A DNA stretch of 43,338 bases from Candidatus Roizmanbacteria bacterium RIFCSPHIGHO2_12_FULL_37_23. Its GTDB lineage: Bacteria > Patescibacteriota > Microgenomatia > UBA1406 > HO2-37-13b. The stretch lies in the NCBI GenBank assembly GCA_001788095.1, contig MFZX01000043.1:1-43338 (forward strand). Direction: 5' to 3'. The notes below the pieces were generated by a model. It saw nothing but the letters and a program-made list of their open reading frames with translations, had not been told where the DNA came from and did no database searches. Of the stretch, positions 1-32,131 are shown one piece after another. How positions within the stretch are numbered: the stretch's first letter is position 1; each line of letters opens with the position of its first letter. The translations under genes were made by a program, and so were the position numbers.

Positions 1-601
1 TCGAATATGCTCTCTTCATTCCTTCAGATGTTGGTGTATCTTTTTGTTCCTTTCCTGTTATTACAACAATATCAACGATGTTCCAATAATCATGCGGAAA
101 TATCGATTTTGCATATGATCCGTCACTCGTATTAGCATTGAGCCATTCAACAAATCCGTCAGGAATAGATCGACACGCTGATCCTGATCCCTGTCGAGCA
201 AGAATTGATAAATCTTTTTCTGATAAATCAAGATTTGCAGCTTTAGATGCAGCAAGTGAAAGAGCTGCAAAGCCTGATGCCGACGATGAAAGGCCTGTGC
301 TTTCTGGGAAATTATTCTTGGAAACTATTTGAGCTCTCTGCTGAAATTTTTTTAAGAGTCTAATTCTATCGAGATGTTTGAGAACTCTTTGTAAAGATCT
401 TTGTTTTGGTTCCTCACCGTTGTACAAAATTACGTCTTCTCCATAATCATCACTAAACTCCACGGTTGTTGTTGTAATAAGATTACTCAGATTCATTGAA
501 ATACTGCCATTAACAGGCAATCGTTCTTCTTCATGACCCTTTTTTTTACCCCAATATTTAATAAACGCTAAGTTTGATGGTGCTATTGCGGTTGCTTTCA
601 T
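1..601 (-). CDS. mvaD: Diphosphomevalonate decarboxylase, N-terminal ~200 residues (cut by window edge)
   Basis: Converts mevalonate diphosphate to isopentenyl diphosphate with ATP, the last step of the classical mevalonate pathway, in the cytosol. The visible part starts MKATAIAPSNLAFIKYWGKK, the family's N-terminal substrate/ATP region with the conserved Lys. It continues with a Ser-rich GHMP loop (ESTGLSSSASGFAAL, about residue 100) and the segment RQGSGSACRSIPDGFVEW, all hallmarks of this enzyme. The ATG at 601 lies 2 bp after the stop of the preceding kinase gene, so it is the last visible gene of the operon. The C-terminal third, including the catalytic Asp, lies beyond position 1, so decarboxylase and phosphomevalonate-decarboxylase variants cannot be fully separated. 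Confidence 0.93.
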   Translation of the reverse strand, partial: MKATAIAPSNLAFIKYWGKKKGHEEERLPVNGSISMNLSNLITTTTVEFSDDYGEDVILYNGEEPKQRSLQRVLKHLDRIRLLKKFQQRAQIVSKNNFPESTGLSSSASGFAALSLAASKAANLDLSEKDLSILARQGSGSACRSIPDGFVEWLNANTSDGSYAKSIFPHDYWNIVDIVVITGKEQKDTPTSEGMKRAYS

Positions 602-603
602 AA

Positions 604-1536
604 TTAGTTATGAGATATAACCCCTTCAATACCTGTCTCAACTTTAATAACCTCGCCTCCAGCTTCTTCGATTGCTTTCTCGACAGATTTTCTATTACTT
701 TCTGACGTAAGTGCAATCATGATATCTCCTCCTCCTGCGCCAGATAGTTTTGCACCAAAAGATCCAGCCCTTATGGATGCGTTAACTAAATTATCGAGTC
801 TTCCTGTACTTACTCCTAATTCCTTAAGAACGAAATGATCTTCTATCATCAACTTACCGAATTCTTTCAAATTATTATTTTCTAATTCTCTTCTACCTTT
901 ATTAACAAGCTGAGTAATATGTTTAAATAGATTGTCAATCTTTTTCTTTTCTCGTTGATATTTCTTAGCAACGTTTTTTATAATTTTTGCGGTATTTGCT
1001 TTTTCTCGCGTATAACCAACAACAAGTGGTAATGTACCGATTTTTATATGATCAATAACTTCCCCACCTCTTACATAATAAAGTGTACCGCCAAATGTTG
1101 CTGCAGCAGTATCAAATCCAGATCCAACACGTTGTACAGAAAGCACTACTTTATAACTTATGTCGAAAATTTCTCTTTGGGAAAGCGAAAGATTCCATAA
1201 TGTATTTAAGGCAGCACATGTAGCAACAGTAACAGCAGAAGACGATCCAAGACCAATACCATTAGAAAAATCACCATTCGTTCTAACTTTAACAAAAGTT
1301 CTGATTCCGAATTTCTTTTTCATATGATGTATCGTTTCGAGCACAAATCGAGGATTTTTAGCTTGAGGTGCATCAACAATATCATTTGGGCTATCTATAT
1401 GCTCTACATATGCATGAACACGCTTATTTACCGCTGTAACAATACATGGATGACCATAAACTACAGCGTGCTCACCTAAGAGCATTAACTTACCCGGTGC
1501 TGATACTTTGATTAAGTTTTCTGTACTCCTTTCCAT
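604..1536 (-). CDS. GHMP kinase, probable phosphomevalonate kinase (mevalonate kinase-like)
   Basis: A 310-residue ATP-dependent GHMP kinase. Visible motifs: KVSAPGKLMLLGEHAVVYG near residue 10 (motif 1), GLGSSSAVTVATCAAL near 96 (ATP loop), GSGFDTAAATFGGTLYY near 138 and KLSGAGGGD near 263 (motif 3). Motif 1 is mevalonate kinase-like, while GSGFDTAAATFGG is closer to what I expect in phosphomevalonate kinases. It sits between a second mevalonate kinase-like gene and mvaD, which is the order of the pathway, and no other phosphomevalonate kinase is visible. I infer that it phosphorylates mevalonate 5-phosphate. It could instead be the true mevalonate kinase. Its start overlaps the previous gene by 25 bp, which suggests translational coupling. 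Confidence 0.8.
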   Translation of the reverse strand: MERSTENLIKVSAPGKLMLLGEHAVVYGHPCIVTAVNKRVHAYVEHIDSPNDIVDAPQAKNPRFVLETIHHMKKKFGIRTFVKVRTNGDFSNGIGLGSSSAVTVATCAALNTLWNLSLSQREIFDISYKVVLSVQRVGSGFDTAAATFGGTLYYVRGGEVIDHIKIGTLPLVVGYTREKANTAKIIKNVAKKYQREKKKIDNLFKHITQLVNKGRRELENNNLKEFGKLMIEDHFVLKELGVSTGRLDNLVNASIRAGSFGAKLSGAGGGDIMIALTSESNRKSVEKAIEEAGGEVIKVETGIEGVISHN

Positions 1537-2447
1537 GACTGTTTGAATTTTATGATGTTGATCTTTTTGTATTTACAATATTTTTTCAGTCCATCGACAT
1601 CGTCGGCGAGAAACAAAAGATAACCAGATCCGGTCTTTTTACCACCAGCTCCAGTGATTTTTCCAAAACCATATTTTGATAACTCTTGTAATAGATTTTT
1701 TGTTGAAACAGATACAATTCCAATTTTTTCTAATAAATTCTCATTGTTCTTGATTTGTTGTGCAAACAATTGAACATCTTCCTTTACTAAGCTAATTACT
1801 AATCTCTTGGTAGTTTTTTCAATTTTGTTAAAGATTTCTTCTGCTGATTTTGGGTACTTGTTATAGTATTTTCCTACCAAGTCAACCATTTCGCCTGTTG
1901 TCTCTATGGGTTTACCCGAATCAATAAGGTAAAGTTTCTCCTCAATTTTTTTAGGAATTTTGAAGGCTAATTTATAGATACCTTTTAAGAATTCAAATTC
2001 CTTTCGGAAATAAACAAGTCCACCAAAAGTAGATGTTGTTGAGTCAACACCTGAAGGATTTTTATGAAAAGCTTTCTCGACTTTATAAGCGAGGTTATTA
2101 ATAAGTTCTATTGGGTGTGATTTTCCTGTATAAAAATCTAGAAAAGCTGCTGTTCCGGCAGCTGAGAAAGCCGCTGAAGAGCCAAGACCTCGCGCAATGG
2201 GGATGTCGGACTTGATGGTATAATCGATTTGAGAATTGAAATTTGAGAGATGAGAATTTTCGATAAGGTATTTTCTCACTACATCTACGATTCTTGCAAC
2301 GTTTTTATCTTTTCTCTTATTTTCTCCTTCTCCTACAGCAAAGACTAATCGCAAATCTATTGCAGAAACAATCGCTGGCTTCCCATACACAACGACATGT
2401 TCCCCTGAGAGAATTACCTTTGCTGGTGCTGAATAAGATATTGACAT
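1512..2447 (-). CDS. mvk: Mevalonate kinase (GHMP family)
   Basis: Phosphorylates mevalonate at the 5-hydroxyl using ATP. The 311-residue protein has motif 1 YSAPAKVILSGEHVVVYG at residues 5-22, the ATP loop GLGSSAAFSAAGTAA near residue 90, and PSGVDSTTSTFGGLVYF near 131, which carries the expected catalytic Asp. The C-terminal glycine motif is unusual: ITGAGGKKTGSGYLLF instead of the common GAGGGGC form. It follows the DUF35 gene by 12 bp and overlaps the next kinase by 25 bp. Assignment of this copy, rather than its neighbour, to mevalonate is from the Asp-containing motif and gene order. Kinase family membership is secure; the substrate is inferred. Confidence 0.82.
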   Translation of the reverse strand: MSISYSAPAKVILSGEHVVVYGKPAIVSAIDLRLVFAVGEGENKRKDKNVARIVDVVRKYLIENSHLSNFNSQIDYTIKSDIPIARGLGSSAAFSAAGTAAFLDFYTGKSHPIELINNLAYKVEKAFHKNPSGVDSTTSTFGGLVYFRKEFEFLKGIYKLAFKIPKKIEEKLYLIDSGKPIETTGEMVDLVGKYYNKYPKSAEEIFNKIEKTTKRLVISLVKEDVQLFAQQIKNNENLLEKIGIVSVSTKNLLQELSKYGFGKITGAGGKKTGSGYLLFLADDVDGLKKYCKYKKINIIKFKQSWKGVQKT

Positions 2448-2459
2448 TACTGAATTGAT

Positions 2460-2765
2460 TCAACTTGCTGGTCTAAATTTAATTCCGTAAGCAATCACCC
2501 CATCCTCTGATGGCTTATGAACCTTTCTTAATATTGAGACAACTTCCTTACCTGTTGTAAGATCGCTCTCGTTATATTCAACTAATTGTCCACATATACG
2601 TTGCTTATTTTCTAGTTGTACCAATATCACTGGGAAAGGTGCCTGATCTTTATGCTTATGTCCAGGCACAGAAATAACTGTCCACGTGATAATTTTTCCT
2701 TTCATCCCTAATAATTTTCTTAATGTTTTTTGTCTTCTCCAAACTTTGACAGGACTCGTTTTCAT
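2460..2765 (-). CDS. DUF35 OB-fold protein lacking the zinc ribbon, thiolase/HMG-CoA synthase partner
   Basis: In archaea a DUF35 protein bridges acetoacetyl-CoA thiolase and HMG-CoA synthase in one complex and helps pass acetoacetyl-CoA between them. This 101-residue protein keeps the OB-fold pattern: GKIITWTVISVPGHKHKDQAP near residues 24-44, a central ICGQLVEYNESDL, and the C-terminal IAYGIKFRPAS. Normal members are about 130 residues, with a four-Cys zinc ribbon between the N-terminal helix and the OB fold. Here the helix (WRRQKTLRKLLGMKG) runs straight into the OB fold and only one Cys remains. Reading upstream in frame reaches a TAG four codons past the ATG, so the ribbon is not simply mis-started. 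It lies 4 bp after the thiolase gene. Confidence 0.88.
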   Translation of the reverse strand: MKTSPVKVWRRQKTLRKLLGMKGKIITWTVISVPGHKHKDQAPFPVILVQLENKQRICGQLVEYNESDLTTGKEVVSILRKVHKPSEDGVIAYGIKFRPAS

Positions 2766-2769
2766 AAGC

Positions 2770-3921
2770 TCAATTTCCTAATATCGTAACTACTGCTGTT
2801 CCACCCGAACCCCCTACGTTATGTGCCAGGCCATATCTCGATTTCTTCACTTGTCTTTTACCAGCACGGCCAGTAAGCTGTAGATAAACTTCCCCTATCT
2901 GTTTAACTCCAGTCGCACCTACAGGATGGCCTGCTGCTTTCAATCCCCCGGACGTATTTACAATAAACCCATTACCATTACCATGCATCGTTTCATATTC
3001 TTTAATCCTTTTACCTGCTGTTCCTTTTTTCCAAAAACCAAGATCCTCCATAGCTAAAAGCTCTGCAATGGAAAAACAATCATGAAGCTCTGCAACTGAA
3101 ATATCTTTTCGATCTATTTTTGCTTGGTCAAAAGCTTTATCCGCAGCTATTTTCGTTGCCAAAAGTTCATCAAGTCTTTTTCTTGATTTAAGAGAAATAG
3201 AATCAGTAGCAACTTCTGATGATAAAATCTTCGCAACGTATTTCGCTTGTGCTACAAGTTGATGATTAGAAGATATTATTAGAGCTGAAGCCCCATCAGA
3301 TATTGGCGAAGAGTCTAATACTTTTAACGGGCTTGCAACATAAGGACTTTTTAATACATCTTCAATCGTTATTTGCTTTCTAAAATGAGCATACTCATTA
3401 AGAAAACCATGATAATGATTTTTAACAGAGACATACGCAAGATCTTCTTCTGTATAACCATACGTTTCCATATATACCCGGGCAAGCATTGCATAAAGCC
3501 CGGGAAATGTTAAACCCACTTCTTGTTCGTCCCCTGAAGCTGCTGCAGAAAGTCCAGAAATAGTAACGTCGGGTGGAAAATCTGTCATTTTCTCAGCACC
3601 AACGACAATAACAGTATGAGCTTTACCAGCGGTAATATAATTAACCGCCATGTTAAATGCAATACCACCAGAAGCACATGCTGATTCAACATGAAATACT
3701 GGAATGTGAGTATCGAGAATTTCTGCTACTTTTGCTCCTGAGTGAAGATTATTTTCCAATACACCACCGAGCATATTGCCTATAAAAATAGCGTCACAAT
3801 GTTCTTTCTCCAGTTTAGCATCTTTTAATACGCCCCTGATTACTTCTCCAACAAGATCGTATAATGATTTGTTCCAAAGTTCTCCAAATTTTGTTGTATG
3901 ATAACCAATTACTGAAATCAT
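2770..3921 (-). CDS. Acetyl-CoA C-acetyltransferase, archaeal/SCP2-type thiolase
   Basis: Condenses two acetyl-CoA to acetoacetyl-CoA, the first committed input of the mevalonate pathway. From the ATG at 3921 the protein has 383 residues. It has the nucleophile Cys in VESACASGGIAF (about residue 82), the HDCFS segment with its His near 282, GHPVGATG near 330 and the C-terminal HNVGGSGGTAVV typical of this subgroup. A TTG at 3936 would add five residues and overlap the synthase stop. I prefer the ATG because archaeal homologues begin close to the VIGYHTTKFGELW motif. It is flanked by HMG-CoA synthase and DUF35, which matches the archaeal three-protein complex. Confidence 0.93.
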   Translation of the reverse strand: MISVIGYHTTKFGELWNKSLYDLVGEVIRGVLKDAKLEKEHCDAIFIGNMLGGVLENNLHSGAKVAEILDTHIPVFHVESACASGGIAFNMAVNYITAGKAHTVIVVGAEKMTDFPPDVTISGLSAAASGDEQEVGLTFPGLYAMLARVYMETYGYTEEDLAYVSVKNHYHGFLNEYAHFRKQITIEDVLKSPYVASPLKVLDSSPISDGASALIISSNHQLVAQAKYVAKILSSEVATDSISLKSRKRLDELLATKIAADKAFDQAKIDRKDISVAELHDCFSIAELLAMEDLGFWKKGTAGKRIKEYETMHGNGNGFIVNTSGGLKAAGHPVGATGVKQIGEVYLQLTGRAGKRQVKKSRYGLAHNVGGSGGTAVVTILGN

Positions 3922-3932
3922 AAATATTAAAT

Positions 3933-4952
3933 TCAATCACCCATTAATCTTAAATATTTCTGATAATCCACATATTGTTTCACATCAATAGTTTCGGAAA
4001 AATTCTTTCTTCTTTTCTCAATTTCTTTCGTTACCCTAAATACAAAAGCATCAGATCCTGCACCTGACCCATACGATGCTAATAGTATTAAATCGCCTGG
4101 TTGTGATTTGTCTAGTACAGCACAAAGTCCAATAAGAGAACAGGCAGAATATGCATTACCTAATTTTCTAACAATGAGTGAATCTTCTATCTGTTCCTTT
4201 GAGAACCCGAGTTCTAGTGCACAGCGAATAGGAAATTTCCCATTAGGCATATGAAAAATGATTCTCGAAAAATCTTGAGGTTTTCTTTTTGTTTTCTTAA
4301 GTAAAGCTTTTACTGCTCCATGAACATGAAAAAAATATGCAGGTTCGCCAGTAAAACGACCTGCGTGAGATGGAAATTTATTACCATGTCGTCTCCAAAA
4401 GTCAGGTGTATCTGATGAAAATGAGGAGGAATCTATATATTCTAAAAGAACATCTTTTTTTCCAAGAATGAACGACGCTGCAGCTGAAGCTGCTGAATAC
4501 TCAAGAGCATCTCCAGGCTTCCCTGTTGCTTTATCTGAACCAGAAACGAGAACGTATTCACAAAATCCGGCTTTAACGAGTGCAAAAGAAGATATTAAAA
4601 CACCAGTTGCAGCTTTACATGCAAACTGCGTGTCATATGCAAGATAATTATTACCAATATCAAGATAATCAGCAAGAATTGTTGAGGTGGGATTTACTAC
4701 ATATGGATGGCTTTCTGAACCAATAAAAACACCAGATATTTTTGTTTTATCAAAAATATTATCAGCAAGTGCCATCGTTGCAGATTGATATGACATAGTT
4801 AGAGTATCTTCATCAATCCCTCCAATTGCTTTTTCATAGATATTAAGAGATCCTATAATACTTTCTGGATTTTTTCCCCAGTAACGTGCAATATCTTCTG
4901 TTTTTATTCGATAACGTGGAATATAAAATCCGTATGAAACTATACCGAGCAT
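3933..4952 (-). CDS. Hydroxymethylglutaryl-CoA synthase (archaeal type)
   Basis: Adds acetyl-CoA to acetoacetyl-CoA to give HMG-CoA. The 339-residue length fits the archaeal type, shorter than eukaryotic or Gram-positive enzymes. By position the catalytic residues are Glu80 (GSESHPY), Cys112 (QFACKAATG) and His234 (IFHMPNGKFP). Other fingerprints are GDALEYSAASAAA near 147 and the C-terminal LLASYGSGAGSDAF. The thiolase gene begins 11 bp after its TGA. No Shine-Dalgarno sequence precedes its ATG (AAATATATG), and the 34 bp gap to the reductase gene suggests cotranscription. Confidence 0.94.
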   Translation of the reverse strand: MLGIVSYGFYIPRYRIKTEDIARYWGKNPESIIGSLNIYEKAIGGIDEDTLTMSYQSATMALADNIFDKTKISGVFIGSESHPYVVNPTSTILADYLDIGNNYLAYDTQFACKAATGVLISSFALVKAGFCEYVLVSGSDKATGKPGDALEYSAASAAASFILGKKDVLLEYIDSSSFSSDTPDFWRRHGNKFPSHAGRFTGEPAYFFHVHGAVKALLKKTKRKPQDFSRIIFHMPNGKFPIRCALELGFSKEQIEDSLIVRKLGNAYSACSLIGLCAVLDKSQPGDLILLASYGSGAGSDAFVFRVTKEIEKRRKNFSETIDVKQYVDYQKYLRLMGD

Positions 4953-4986: not shown

Positions 4987-6111
4987 TTATCTTCCTAGTT
5001 GTCTGTGGGCCTTTCCTAGTGTTCCTTCAGTTTCAGATGCTAACAATGAAATTTCACCTGCTAAAACTGCACCGCTCAATATTTCTACGAATTCTTCAGA
5101 ACTCTTTACTCCAGTTAATTTCAATGCTTCATTCTGAGTTTTTAAACCAGTTCCACCTCCAACAATCCCCGCTAATACTGCTGGAAGATAAATGCTTGCG
5201 TATAAATCTCCATTGGGTAGTACTTTTGTCGTTGTTATCCCCATGCTTCCTTCTACGACATGGGCCGCATCCTGACCTGTTGCTAAATAAACGGCAGCAA
5301 TGATATTTGCAAAATGAGCGTTAAATCCAAGGGAGCCACTCATCGCCGAGCCAATCATGCATTTGGAGAGCCATACATCGAATACATGTTCTGCGTCCAC
5401 TTTGAGAGTGTTTTTAAGAACATCCTTTTTTAATACGATCTCTGCCCAAACTTTAAATCCTCTATTATCAATAAAGTTAAGCCAGGCTGGTTTTTTATCA
5501 ATATCAAAATTGCCGGCAACAGACAGACATTTAAGTCCGGTTTCTTTTTCAATTAATCGTACGATCTTCTCAGTAGCAAAGGTTGCCATATTCATACCCA
5601 TGGCGTTTGCCGTGTCGTAATAAAAACGAACAAATACATATCTCCCTACACTTTTAATCATCATCTTTTTATACTTGAGATGGTTTGAAGTAGATTCTGC
5701 TGTTTCAACAACTTTTTCTTCGTTCTTGTGAAGCCACTTAAAAAGCTTTCTATTTCCAGCTATAGACTCGACATCAAATACTGGACCTCTTGTTGTTCCT
5801 ATTCTATAAGCAAAAACATTTGCTCCTCCACTCTCTCTAATCGCTTTACTTCCTCTATTAACAGAGGCAACAAGAGCTCCTTCTGTTGTTGCAAGTGGAA
5901 TATAAAATTCTCCATTGATATATTCTCCTTTAAGTTTCATAGGACCTGCAGCACCAAGCGGAAGAGTAATAGCTCCGATTAAATTTTCGCAATGTACGTT
6001 TTTTTCCTCATCAATAAAACTGTTCCCAATATTTTTCAGAGATATATTCATGAGTTTTTCAAGATATTCTTGTCGATCTTTATAGTTTTTGAATTCTGAA
6101 AGTTTCTTCAT
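4987..6111 (-). CDS. hmgA: Hydroxymethylglutaryl-CoA reductase, class I-like
   Basis: Reduces HMG-CoA to mevalonate with NAD(P)H in two hydride steps. The 374-residue soluble protein has ENLIGAITLPLGAAGP (42-57), ATTEG with catalytic Glu77, Lys206 in DIDKKPAWLNF, Asp281 in TGQDAA and His369 in LGKAHRQLGR near the C-terminus. All four expected catalytic residues are present. The dinucleotide-binding motif normally written DAMGMN reads NAMGMN (Asn169), a substitution in a highly conserved position. It lacks membrane segments, as in archaea. It is 3 bp from the upstream Yip1-like gene and 34 bp before HMG-CoA synthase, in the same operon. Confidence 0.95.
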   Translation of the reverse strand: MKKLSEFKNYKDRQEYLEKLMNISLKNIGNSFIDEEKNVHCENLIGAITLPLGAAGPMKLKGEYINGEFYIPLATTEGALVASVNRGSKAIRESGGANVFAYRIGTTRGPVFDVESIAGNRKLFKWLHKNEEKVVETAESTSNHLKYKKMMIKSVGRYVFVRFYYDTANAMGMNMATFATEKIVRLIEKETGLKCLSVAGNFDIDKKPAWLNFIDNRGFKVWAEIVLKKDVLKNTLKVDAEHVFDVWLSKCMIGSAMSGSLGFNAHFANIIAAVYLATGQDAAHVVEGSMGITTTKVLPNGDLYASIYLPAVLAGIVGGGTGLKTQNEALKLTGVKSSEEFVEILSGAVLAGEISLLASETEGTLGKAHRQLGR

Positions 6112-28835: not shown

Positions 28836-28848
28836 TTCTTTGATTCAT

Positions 28849-29418
28849 ATGAATAATAGATTCACTTCTGACAATGTTCCGCCACCTAATAATCTTAAAA
28901 AAATTCTTATTATTGGTAGCACTGCTACACTCCTTGTTGTACTTGGAATTAGTACTTTTGTCGTACAGCGCGTACAAAAATCAGATACTCAAGCTATGCT
29001 TGAAGATCGGATCGCACAATGCCCATATCTTGTCACAGATTCATTAAGCTGTAGTAGAGATGGTGGTGAAATTATCAATACTGTAGACGCATCAGGATCG
29101 GGTGATGGGACTACCATCCTTGTTTGTTGTCGATTAGCTCCTTCACCAACTCCTTTTGCTTGTCCAGAAGATTCTATTCTTTTACCCACGGATCAATGCC
29201 TGCCGGAAAATATCATACCAATTGAACCTATTGAACCTCCTACTGATGGTGGTGATATACAACCTGGTATGGTGTGTTGTCGACCAAAAAGTTCACCGAC
29301 TCCACCCGAGCTTGAAGGCCCTACAGATACACCTACTCCAACACCCCTTGTATGCAAAGAACCACCACCACCAAATATTACTAATTTAAACATTACTTGT
29401 CCTGAATGCGTACCATGA
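28849..29418 (+). CDS. Anchored Cys/Pro-rich surface protein 1
   Basis: A 189-residue protein from ATG 28849 (TTG at 28840 is less likely). A membrane helix at about 16-38 (ILIIGSTATLLVVLGISTFV) is followed by a Cys-containing outside part with two related blocks (VTDSLSCSRDGGEII...ILVCCRLAPSPTPFACP and LPTDQCLP...GMVCCRPKSSPTPPE), each ending in CC-R-SPTP. The tail is TPTPTP-rich and ends with CPECVP. The paired CC blocks look like a small disulfide repeat. It overlaps the next gene by an ATGA. Confidence 0.75.
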   Translation: MNNRFTSDNVPPPNNLKKILIIGSTATLLVVLGISTFVVQRVQKSDTQAMLEDRIAQCPYLVTDSLSCSRDGGEIINTVDASGSGDGTTILVCCRLAPSPTPFACPEDSILLPTDQCLPENIIPIEPIEPPTDGGDIQPGMVCCRPKSSPTPPELEGPTDTPTPTPLVCKEPPPPNITNLNITCPECVP

Positions 29419-30854
29419 GTAGATTTTCCCGTTTTACAGAAGAATACGATATAAAAAAAATTGCTCTCACATTGGGAGCTTTTGTGATAATTACTCTTGG
29501 TTCAATCGCAGGTATTCAAGTCCTTCGGAATAATTTAGATATTCGTGAACAAGCAGCAGGACCTTCATGCCCAAGTGGAACTGGCTTATTAACTTGTTCC
29601 TTTGATGTGGAATCTTCGGGTCAAACTTTCGAATACAAAGTTGTGTTTTCCGTGTTTGACGAAGATGGAAATTTGATAATGCAAATCCCTAGTGATCCGA
29701 AAATTATTAACGATTCTGAGAGAATACACCATGTTGTTGAATCTAAACAAGTTCCTATCAATTTTAAGTACAAATGTGATGTTGAAGTAACATATAAAAA
29801 AGTTTGTACACCTGATACAGGAATAATCAGACAGTCTACGGAGATTAGTTGTCCTGTTGAAAATCCCCCTACCTCAACTCCCGCAACAAATCCAACCTTA
29901 ACACCATCGCCAACTCCTTTTCGTCGAACTGGCGTAGAATGCTCTAAGTGTTCGCAACTTCAAGTGACAGTAGATTTAACGACTATTCCCCCCCCTCCTA
30001 AATTTCCACCAAATATAGATGAACCTGGTCTAAAGATTGGCCGCGTCAAACTTGCTTCATCAAGCGCGGATTGTCCAGGGGGTATAAATTGCGATAACAT
30101 AGATCTTAAATGGGTAGCGTTTGCTGGACCTTCTTGTGGAAATGTCAATGATGATACGAGCATAGTTATCCCAACTCCCCCTGATAGATTAGACATAAGT
30201 TGTGCTGAAGCAACGGGGCCAGACGGAGCAGTTTTCAGACTCCATCAGGCTGTTGAGGATGGGTGCCGATGTTATCAACTTCGACTTGATATAAATGGTG
30301 AAAACGATCCACCGGTCTGTCCAAATCCAGAAGAATTAAGAGTATGTTGTCCTCTACGATGCGCGCCACCACAAATCATTGATGATCCTAATAATCCAGA
30401 TGATAACTGTGATGGTGATCCAGATGGGCCAAATCCAAACGTACCCGCAGCAGATCAATGCTACTTTGACCTTACAGAACCTAACGCATGTCCTATCTTA
30501 AAAAAAGAAGCTCAATTTAGAACACAAATCGGATCGAATCTTGGAACAGGAGAAATAGAATTTGATGATGATTTTAAAGAAAGTAATAAGCAGGTACAAA
30601 ACGGCACTGATGATCCTACATATACATATAATGATGCTGGAGTATACGACGTAGAACTTCGATGTAAAAACTCAGCTGGAAATGATAAAACGTGTAAAAA
30701 GCGCATCACCGTAACGTGCGAAAGTGGCGGCGGGGGTGGTGGTGGAGGCGGCGGTGGAGGTGGTGGAGGTAGTGGAACACCAAGACCGAGCCCAAGTAAT
30801 ACACCACCATTTTGCCCATTACAAGATCAGACCGTAACAGGAATATGTCAATAA
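29415..30854 (+). CDS. Anchored surface protein 2 with PKD-like domain and poly-Gly spacer
   Basis: A 479-residue protein with an N-terminal helix (IALTLGAFVIITLGSIAGIQ) and three Cys-containing beta domains: CPSGTGLLTCSFDVES near 47, CSKCSQLQVTVDL near 177 with a long domain after it, and a PKD-like end, TYTYNDAGVYDVELRCKNSAG near 397-417. A run of 15 glycines near 433-447 precedes a Ser/Pro linker and a short Cys tail. The ATG 29415 overlaps the previous stop (ATGA). No catalytic motif is present, so it is probably an extracellular adhesion or binding protein. Confidence 0.78.
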   Translation: MSRFSRFTEEYDIKKIALTLGAFVIITLGSIAGIQVLRNNLDIREQAAGPSCPSGTGLLTCSFDVESSGQTFEYKVVFSVFDEDGNLIMQIPSDPKIINDSERIHHVVESKQVPINFKYKCDVEVTYKKVCTPDTGIIRQSTEISCPVENPPTSTPATNPTLTPSPTPFRRTGVECSKCSQLQVTVDLTTIPPPPKFPPNIDEPGLKIGRVKLASSSADCPGGINCDNIDLKWVAFAGPSCGNVNDDTSIVIPTPPDRLDISCAEATGPDGAVFRLHQAVEDGCRCYQLRLDINGENDPPVCPNPEELRVCCPLRCAPPQIIDDPNNPDDNCDGDPDGPNPNVPAADQCYFDLTEPNACPILKKEAQFRTQIGSNLGTGEIEFDDDFKESNKQVQNGTDDPTYTYNDAGVYDVELRCKNSAGNDKTCKKRITVTCESGGGGGGGGGGGGGGGSGTPRPSPSNTPPFCPLQDQTVTGICQ

Positions 30855-32131
30855 ATGAACGTAAAAAAAATATTTTAGTCGCATTTACACTACTAGTCCT
30901 TGGAGTTGGGATTATCGCAGGTTTATTTTTAGTACGACAACGTCAACTTATTAAAAAAGAAGCTGCTATTCCTGAAGGTCGAACAATAACATGTTCTTGG
31001 GAAATTGACGGAACGTATGAAGTAAGTGTTGTCGATAGTCAAGGCAATACTATCTTAGGTCCCGAAACTGTAACCGGAACATCCTTTACTTTTATTAATG
31101 TTGATACTACTTCACTTCCCGATCCTGTTTTTTGCCAAATAAATACCATTGGTGCATCAACGGCTTGTGTACCAATACGTAGTGGTCCTATTTCTTGTCC
31201 TATTCCTCCCGAAGTAACAGACACACCAACACCAACTCCAGAACTTCCCGGCTGTTATCAAACCTGTGGTACCGGAGTACCTTCTTGTCAGCCTGGTTTA
31301 GGCTGTGTATATCCGGGGGGTGAAGCCTGTGATCAGGGAGGAGAAGGATGTTACTGCTTTAGTGAAGCTCTTTGTGATATAACGCCAACTACCACACCAA
31401 CACTGACTTCTACCCCAACGCTGACAAGCACACCAACGCCGACACTTACGCCGACTGCCACACCAACACTACCTCCTGGCGTTACACCAACATCTACACC
31501 ACCTATTACACCAACAAGAACACCAACTCCTACATCGACTCCAACACGCACTCCTACGCCAACACCAACACCAATTAGCTGTCCATTACCTGACGCTGTA
31601 GAAAATCTTGCACTCAGCTGTGATCCTGGACGATGTTCGTGGGAGGGAGTTTCTGGAGTTTCTGCATATAAGGTAAATGTTGTTGATGATACAACAGGAC
31701 TTTCTATATACGAAAATGGGTTTATTCGCACATTAAATACACAGGTTACATTCACTGTTCAAGCAAATCACGCATATAAATGCTATGTAGAATCAGAGAA
31801 CTCTTGTGGCTCCAGTCCTGCAGAAGGATCAGATCTGTGCACACTTGTTGTGCCAACAGATACACCAACACCAAGCAAAACCCCACCACCGACAAGCACA
31901 CCAAAACCAACAAGCATAGCTGGTCCTACAAGTACTCCAACAAAAACATTGACACCGACAGGTACGTTTATCGCTCAAGAAGATACACCAACACCAGTAA
32001 AAGGGTTGTCACCAACCACAACACCGTTCCCAACCTTACCAGTTGCCGGAATATCGCAAAGACTATTATTCACTGTTATCACAATAGGTGCTCTTATCGC
32101 AATCGGAATAGGATTGTTCTTACCATACTAA
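30845..32131 (+). CDS. Anchored surface protein 3, TPTPT-rich, with C-terminal LPVAG-TM
   Basis: A 428-residue protein with an N-terminal helix near 10-31 ([21 protein letters not shown]), a first Cys-containing beta domain ([16 protein letters not shown] near 46), and a Cys knot-like block ([24 protein letters not shown] near 137-160). Then come [20 protein letters not shown] linkers, a FN3-like domain ([19 protein letters not shown]), and a second Thr/Pro linker. The C-terminus is [20 protein letters not shown] plus a hydrophobic helix. LPVAG before a helix resembles a sortase sorting signal, but no basic tail follows. It overlaps the previous gene by 10 bp. Confidence 0.78.

Follow-up and report, generated by a model that had tools for sequence, protein, structure and literature searches.

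Can a DUF35 protein that has lost its Cys4 zinc ribbon still bridge an archaeal-type acetoacetyl-CoA thiolase and HMG-CoA synthase (HMGS) in a bacterium? The question is raised by three adjacent genes in the window, that is, the whole stretch of 43,338 nucleotides analysed here, which belongs to a MAG of Ca. Roizmanbacteria (1.09 Mb, 45 contigs, 95% complete). All DUF35 proteins that had been structurally characterised by 2019 bind zinc (PMC6996347), and it has been suggested that the ribbon touches the nucleotide portion of acyl-CoA (PMC2954200). In the literature searched, which had partial coverage and did not include the original 6ESQ paper, no earlier description of a ribbon-less DUF35 in Patescibacteria/CPR was found.

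The mevalonate operon and the missing ribbon

In the window, the genes on the minus strand are arranged in the transcription order HMG-CoA reductase (HMGR), HMGS, thiolase, DUF35, GHMP kinase and mevalonate kinase, with overlaps or gaps between neighbours of no more than about 35 bases. The features are the following:

4987..6111, minus: HMG-CoA reductase (PF00368, 369 bits)
3933..4952, minus: HMG-CoA synthase, archaeal type (TIGR00748, 383 bits, and PRK04262, 437 bits, both over their cut-offs; 6esq_I, E 3e-93)
2770..3936, minus: acetoacetyl-CoA thiolase (PRK06064, 455.8 bits; 6esq_A, E 1e-85)
3529..3537, minus: thiolase loop, around aa 134-136, with one residue less than in trios that have the ribbon (row comparison)
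2460..2765, minus: ribbon-less DUF35 scaffold protein of 101 aa (PF01796, phmmer, Foldseek)
2718..2753, minus: N-terminal helix of DUF35, aa 5-16 (AlphaFold2 model; W9 and R10 do not vary among 108 relatives)
2700..2708, minus: ribbon junction of DUF35, aa 20-22, the site at which the Cys4 ribbon of 6ESQ DUF35, about 25 residues, is missing (phmmer alignment)
2469..2702, minus: five-stranded OB fold of DUF35, aa 22-99 (AlphaFold2)
1512..2447, minus: GHMP kinase, mevalonate-kinase-like (TIGR00549, 166 bits)
604..1536, minus: mevalonate kinase (TIGR00549, 193 bits)
8..592, minus: diphosphomevalonate-decarboxylase-like gene, truncated at the end of the contig (TIGR01240, 170.3 bits, model 2-195)

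The positions and strands that a first-pass annotation had assigned to HMGS, thiolase and DUF35 were correct. Its claim of an archaeal-type trio in a bacterium was also supported, by the TIGR00748 score and by the PDB search, in which the top match of each of the three proteins was the corresponding subunit of the archaeal 6ESQ complex. The window thiolase and HMGS align to these subunits nearly end to end, and the catalytic motifs (FACKA, SESHPY and HMPNGK in HMGS; the ACASG Cys motif, HDCF and GHP in thiolase) are all present and in register with 6ESQ. Among named sequences, those closest to the window HMGS come from Candidatus Roizmanbacteria. The gene adjacency and the conserved order are likewise those of the archaeal system, whereas the CPR operon is bacterial and also holds HMGR and mevalonate kinases. 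The missing part of the diphosphomevalonate-decarboxylase-like gene was located elsewhere in the same MAG (G000:C37:13-393, TIGR01240 model 174-301), and the two contigs probably join at this split gene.

The short third protein belongs to DUF35 by its match to PF01796 (OB_ChsH2_C; 34.2 bits, Pfam cut-off 27.1). The two-domain architecture of all solved DUF35 proteins also includes an N-terminal, rubredoxin-like Cys4 ribbon (PF12172), and in the profile search no zinc-ribbon model matched the window protein. In the phmmer alignment with 6ESQ DUF35 (6esq_E), residues 6-24 correspond to chain residues 3-21 and residues 18-100 to chain residues 47-128; the jump from chain residue 21 to 47 means that about 25 ribbon-carrying residues are absent. 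Trf, a related DUF35 protein, binds zinc through residues 24, 27, 38 and 41, which lie between the helix and the OB fold (PMC6996347). The window protein has a single Cys, which is located in the OB part, and its ribbon-loss junction is identical in relatives. Upstream of the ATG, the open frame extends by four codons and begins directly behind the thiolase stop, in agreement with the earlier statement that in-frame reading upstream meets a stop codon.

The protein had been described as a ribbon-free OB fold, and this was right only in part. The ribbon is gone, but the AlphaFold2 model retains the N-terminal helix of the two-domain architecture ahead of strands 22-31, 44-51, 56-61, 74-81 and 93-99, and as modelled the window DUF35 is a helix plus OB protein and not a bare OB fold.

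Predicted fold and complex

The AlphaFold2 prediction from 108 DUF35 sequences reached a pLDDT of 90.3 and a pTM of 0.78, with helix 5-16 followed by a five-stranded OB barrel. In the Foldseek search of the PDB, the first match of this model was 6ESQ DUF35 (6esq_F, TM 0.70), which has the same fold with the ribbon added. The later matches were MucABC, PhlABC, benzoylsuccinyl-CoA thiolase, Ltp2-ChsH2 and Sal-Shy, all of them DUF35 scaffolds of thiolase-fold enzymes. The PhlABC acyltransferase (5M3K) and MucABC (9VBT) share the three-subunit plan; in PhlABC, however, PhlB conserves the zinc ribbon (PMC6392133), PhlA does not have the HMGS catalytic residues, and the reaction is a different one. 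In Ltp2-ChsH2 (6OK1) and Sal-Shy (9MYR), DUF35 clamps a thiolase-fold enzyme, but the zinc finger is present and there is no HMGS partner. In the crystal structure of Sal-Shy, DUF35 makes its primary interface through the N-terminal helix and the OB fold, which wrap helix 4 of the thiolase-fold partner, while its zinc finger gives the substrate cleft its shape (PMC12329534). By analogy, the retained part of the CPR DUF35 would correspond to the main thiolase contact in Sal-Shy and the lost part to the lining of the cleft.

The joint structure prediction of the three proteins, which had been proposed as a check, was successful for HMGS and thiolase and not decisive for DUF35. In the relative L089, all three genes share a single reading frame, and we read its stop codons as glycine to give a linked HMGS-thiolase-DUF35 chain of 898 residues, which was predicted by AlphaFold2 on 147 rows. 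The mean pLDDT was 88.1, with values below 50 only at the two linkers and one HMGS loop, and the pTM was 0.84. This pTM implies that HMGS and thiolase are predicted as fixed to each other. By our own arithmetic, a pTM of about 0.81 would be expected if DUF35 were free and about 0.90 if all three were fixed, so that 0.84 does not settle the place of DUF35; the prediction is compatible with a scaffolding place for it. In the coevolution analysis of DUF35 and thiolase (mean-field DCA, Neff 109), the top scores were within the permuted range.

With the established loss of the ribbon, the retained neighbours and predicted fold, the selection and the wide conservation described below, we consider, at a probability of about 0.65, that the window protein represents a clade-wide and ancient zinc-free DUF35 scaffold of the archaeal-type thiolase/HMGS complex, in which helix and OB hold thiolase and probably HMGS, and for which the ribbon is dispensable in CPR. 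By analogy with the known scaffolds, the helix and OB of the ribbon-less protein would hold thiolase and HMGS would dock alongside it, so that acetoacetyl-CoA could stay within the complex. DUF35 would then physically bridge both enzymes, with putative CoA sharing and channelling of acetoacetyl-CoA, made and used inside one complex. Interface details for 6ESQ were drawn from papers on its relatives. The cleft between ribbon and OB of DUF35 contacts thiolase in 6ET9 (PMC6996347), and CoA in 6ESQ is bound by residues from all three proteins (PMC6392133); because of these contacts, loss of the ribbon could weaken binding. A clade that keeps the trio without the ribbon is a natural deletion experiment, which separates scaffolding by helix and OB from the role of the ribbon. 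The protein may also be useful as a zinc-free linker of about 100 residues for the construction of thiolase/HMGS channelling modules. In addition, the finding shows that a bacterial radiation relies on a remodelled, archaeal-type first half of the mevalonate pathway.

It is unlikely that the ribbon-less DUF35 binds thiolase only and does not bridge to HMGS, the operon being kept for expression and channelling being lost. DUF35-thiolase pairs without HMGS are known (Ltp2-ChsH2, Sal-Shy), helix and OB suffice for the primary thiolase interface in Sal-Shy, and the three-protein model (pTM 0.84) leaves the placement of DUF35 unsettled. Against this, the three genes are kept side by side in 106 genomes, and the same pTM requires HMGS to be fixed relative to thiolase; in 6ESQ, such an arrangement involves DUF35. 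It is improbable that DUF35 has left the complex for another role, such as nucleic-acid binding like the archaeal protein Trf. Many ligands are bound by OB folds and Trf is itself a DUF35 protein, but the operon position between thiolase and the mevalonate kinases is strict, and Trf stands well below the enzyme scaffolds in the Foldseek ranking.

Distribution, selection and direction of the loss

PF01796 had matches in 42 of the 83 genomes from the order, in 114 of the 373 from the class Microgenomatia and in 30 of the 380 in the phylum sample. The ribbon-less protein is not a peculiarity of the window genome. In the class sample, 114 genomes carry an archaeal-type HMGS (at least 229 bits), and frame inspection placed a ribbon-less DUF35 immediately after thiolase in 106 of them. 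The Cys4 ribbon was kept in four, all of family f15 and with a diverged OB part, and in the remaining four the locus was cut by contig ends. Every one of these 114 genomes in which the downstream end was readable had a DUF35 gene. PF01796 alone overlooked 15 of the 114; absence of DUF35 from these 15 was considered and rejected, because a diverged frame followed thiolase wherever the contig continued (three with the ribbon).

Homologues with a ribbon in sister genomes had been named as the sign of a local deletion or an assembly error. No such homologue was seen in the order: PF12172 was over the cut-off in none of its 83 genomes, and every DUF35 frame inspected there was about 100 residues long from its start and without Cys4. 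The ribbon is retained in more distant CPR families (f15, f65, f79 and f104). A local deletion or assembly error is ruled out by the same loss in 106 class genomes. Among named relatives gathered by HMGS similarity, the distinct CPR DUF35 frames adjoining thiolase comprised 129 ribbon-less and 5 ribbon-bearing ones, while Cys4 was found in all 23 distinct non-CPR frames (Geoglobus, Ferroglobus, Aenigmatarchaeota and other DPANN, Ignavibacteria, Bacteroidetes, Acidobacteria and Gemmatimonadota).

It is very improbable that some other small protein provides the zinc ribbon in trans. A ribbon in another frame or in a separate protein was looked for and rejected, since PF12172 had no match in the window's own genome; together with the result for the order this argues against the idea, with the proviso that the model may miss a highly diverged ribbon. 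Finally, it is hardly credible that the gene is decaying, or that the short protein results from faulty assembly or annotation: a domain present in every solved DUF35 is absent here (PMC6996347), but the comparative data refute this explanation, with the same architecture in 106 class genomes and in the 129 CPR frames, purifying selection and a stable predicted fold.

As to selection, pairwise dN/dS of the ribbon-less DUF35 had a median of 0.11 and a maximum of 0.28 (83 pairs), which indicates that the protein is under purifying selection. W9, R10, P43, R80 and Y93 are invariant in 108 DUF35 sequences, and the first two of them sit in the N-terminal helix. By analogy, zinc economy or streamlining in small genomes is a plausible driver of the ribbon loss. 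Zinc-free paralogues of ribosomal proteins are a precedent for zinc economy.

In the tree of HMGS and thiolase, which is unrooted, the ribbon-less rows of Roizman-, Gottesman-, Levy- and Daviesbacteria form one clade (SH-aLRT 100). When more diverged rows were added and loop columns removed, the deep branching was uncertain, and on the best tree ribbon state has to change at least three times. Since the solved DUF35 proteins outside the group carry the ribbon (PMC6996347), the change was probably a loss. The DUF35 of Dojkabacteria (L151:8463-8876 and L249) also stands after a CPR thiolase without Cys4, but it keeps a segment of ribbon length, SKSKKTDKAYYPPVFVEPENSN, in which all four zinc cysteines are substituted; from its sequence it is an apparent intermediate of ribbon loss. 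An extension of the preferred reading, namely that the ribbon was lost repeatedly in CPR while bridging and channelling were kept and the thiolase loop was adjusted, is tentative, with odds slightly short of even. If it is true, the ribbon is an accessory and helix plus OB the minimal scaffold.

The thiolase loop and other DUF35 genes

The window thiolase differs from its 6ESQ counterpart in a loop that is one residue shorter. This loop sits just ahead of the helix TFPGLYAMLARVY, which we take as helix 4 by its position in the sequence. Of the 30 rows with a ribbon, 29 have the loop at full length, among them f15, which belongs to the same class. In 89 of 91 unfused ribbon-less rows it is shortened, by one residue in the main ribbon-less group and by two in families f10, f38 and f47. 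The exceptions are f65, with a ribbon and a short loop, and f182, f14 and f106, ribbon-less with a full loop. We considered the loop as a compensating change in thiolase; the counts are strong, but ribbon state changed independently only about three times on the tree, and the counts give no phylogeny-corrected support. On the sequence comparison, the loop is a possible partner change accompanying ribbon loss, and is offered as a lead.

In the f106 Patescibacteria (L239-L241 and L250-L258, also L067-L080), DUF35 again follows the CPR thiolase and has no Cys4. It differs in that the ribbon-less OB is fused in-frame to a guanylate-kinase-like P-loop domain (e.g. L240:3353-4369, minus), located after HMGS and thiolase. 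The fused domain matches PF00625 with about 44-58 bits and contains GPSGVGKTT. The f106 genomes have a separate, better-scoring guanylate kinase besides the fusion, and five of them have two PF00625 matches each. The domain in the fusion could thus be some other kinase and, at a guess, one that acts on a mevalonate phosphate. The window's own genome (95% complete) had no match to the guanylate kinase model PF00625.

Orphan DUF35 genes were found in families f14, f19 and f29 (L032-L043, L232-L238); where their surroundings were checked, neither thiolase nor HMGS lay within about 4 kb. Most f14 and f19 members carry the Cys4 ribbon, and in f29 and L236 both the ribbon and the N-terminal helix are absent. 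Elsewhere in the window, three adjacent proteins at 28840-32131 are rich in Thr/Pro stretches and Cys and are surface-protein-like, and GC is elevated at 30001-32000 (0.438).
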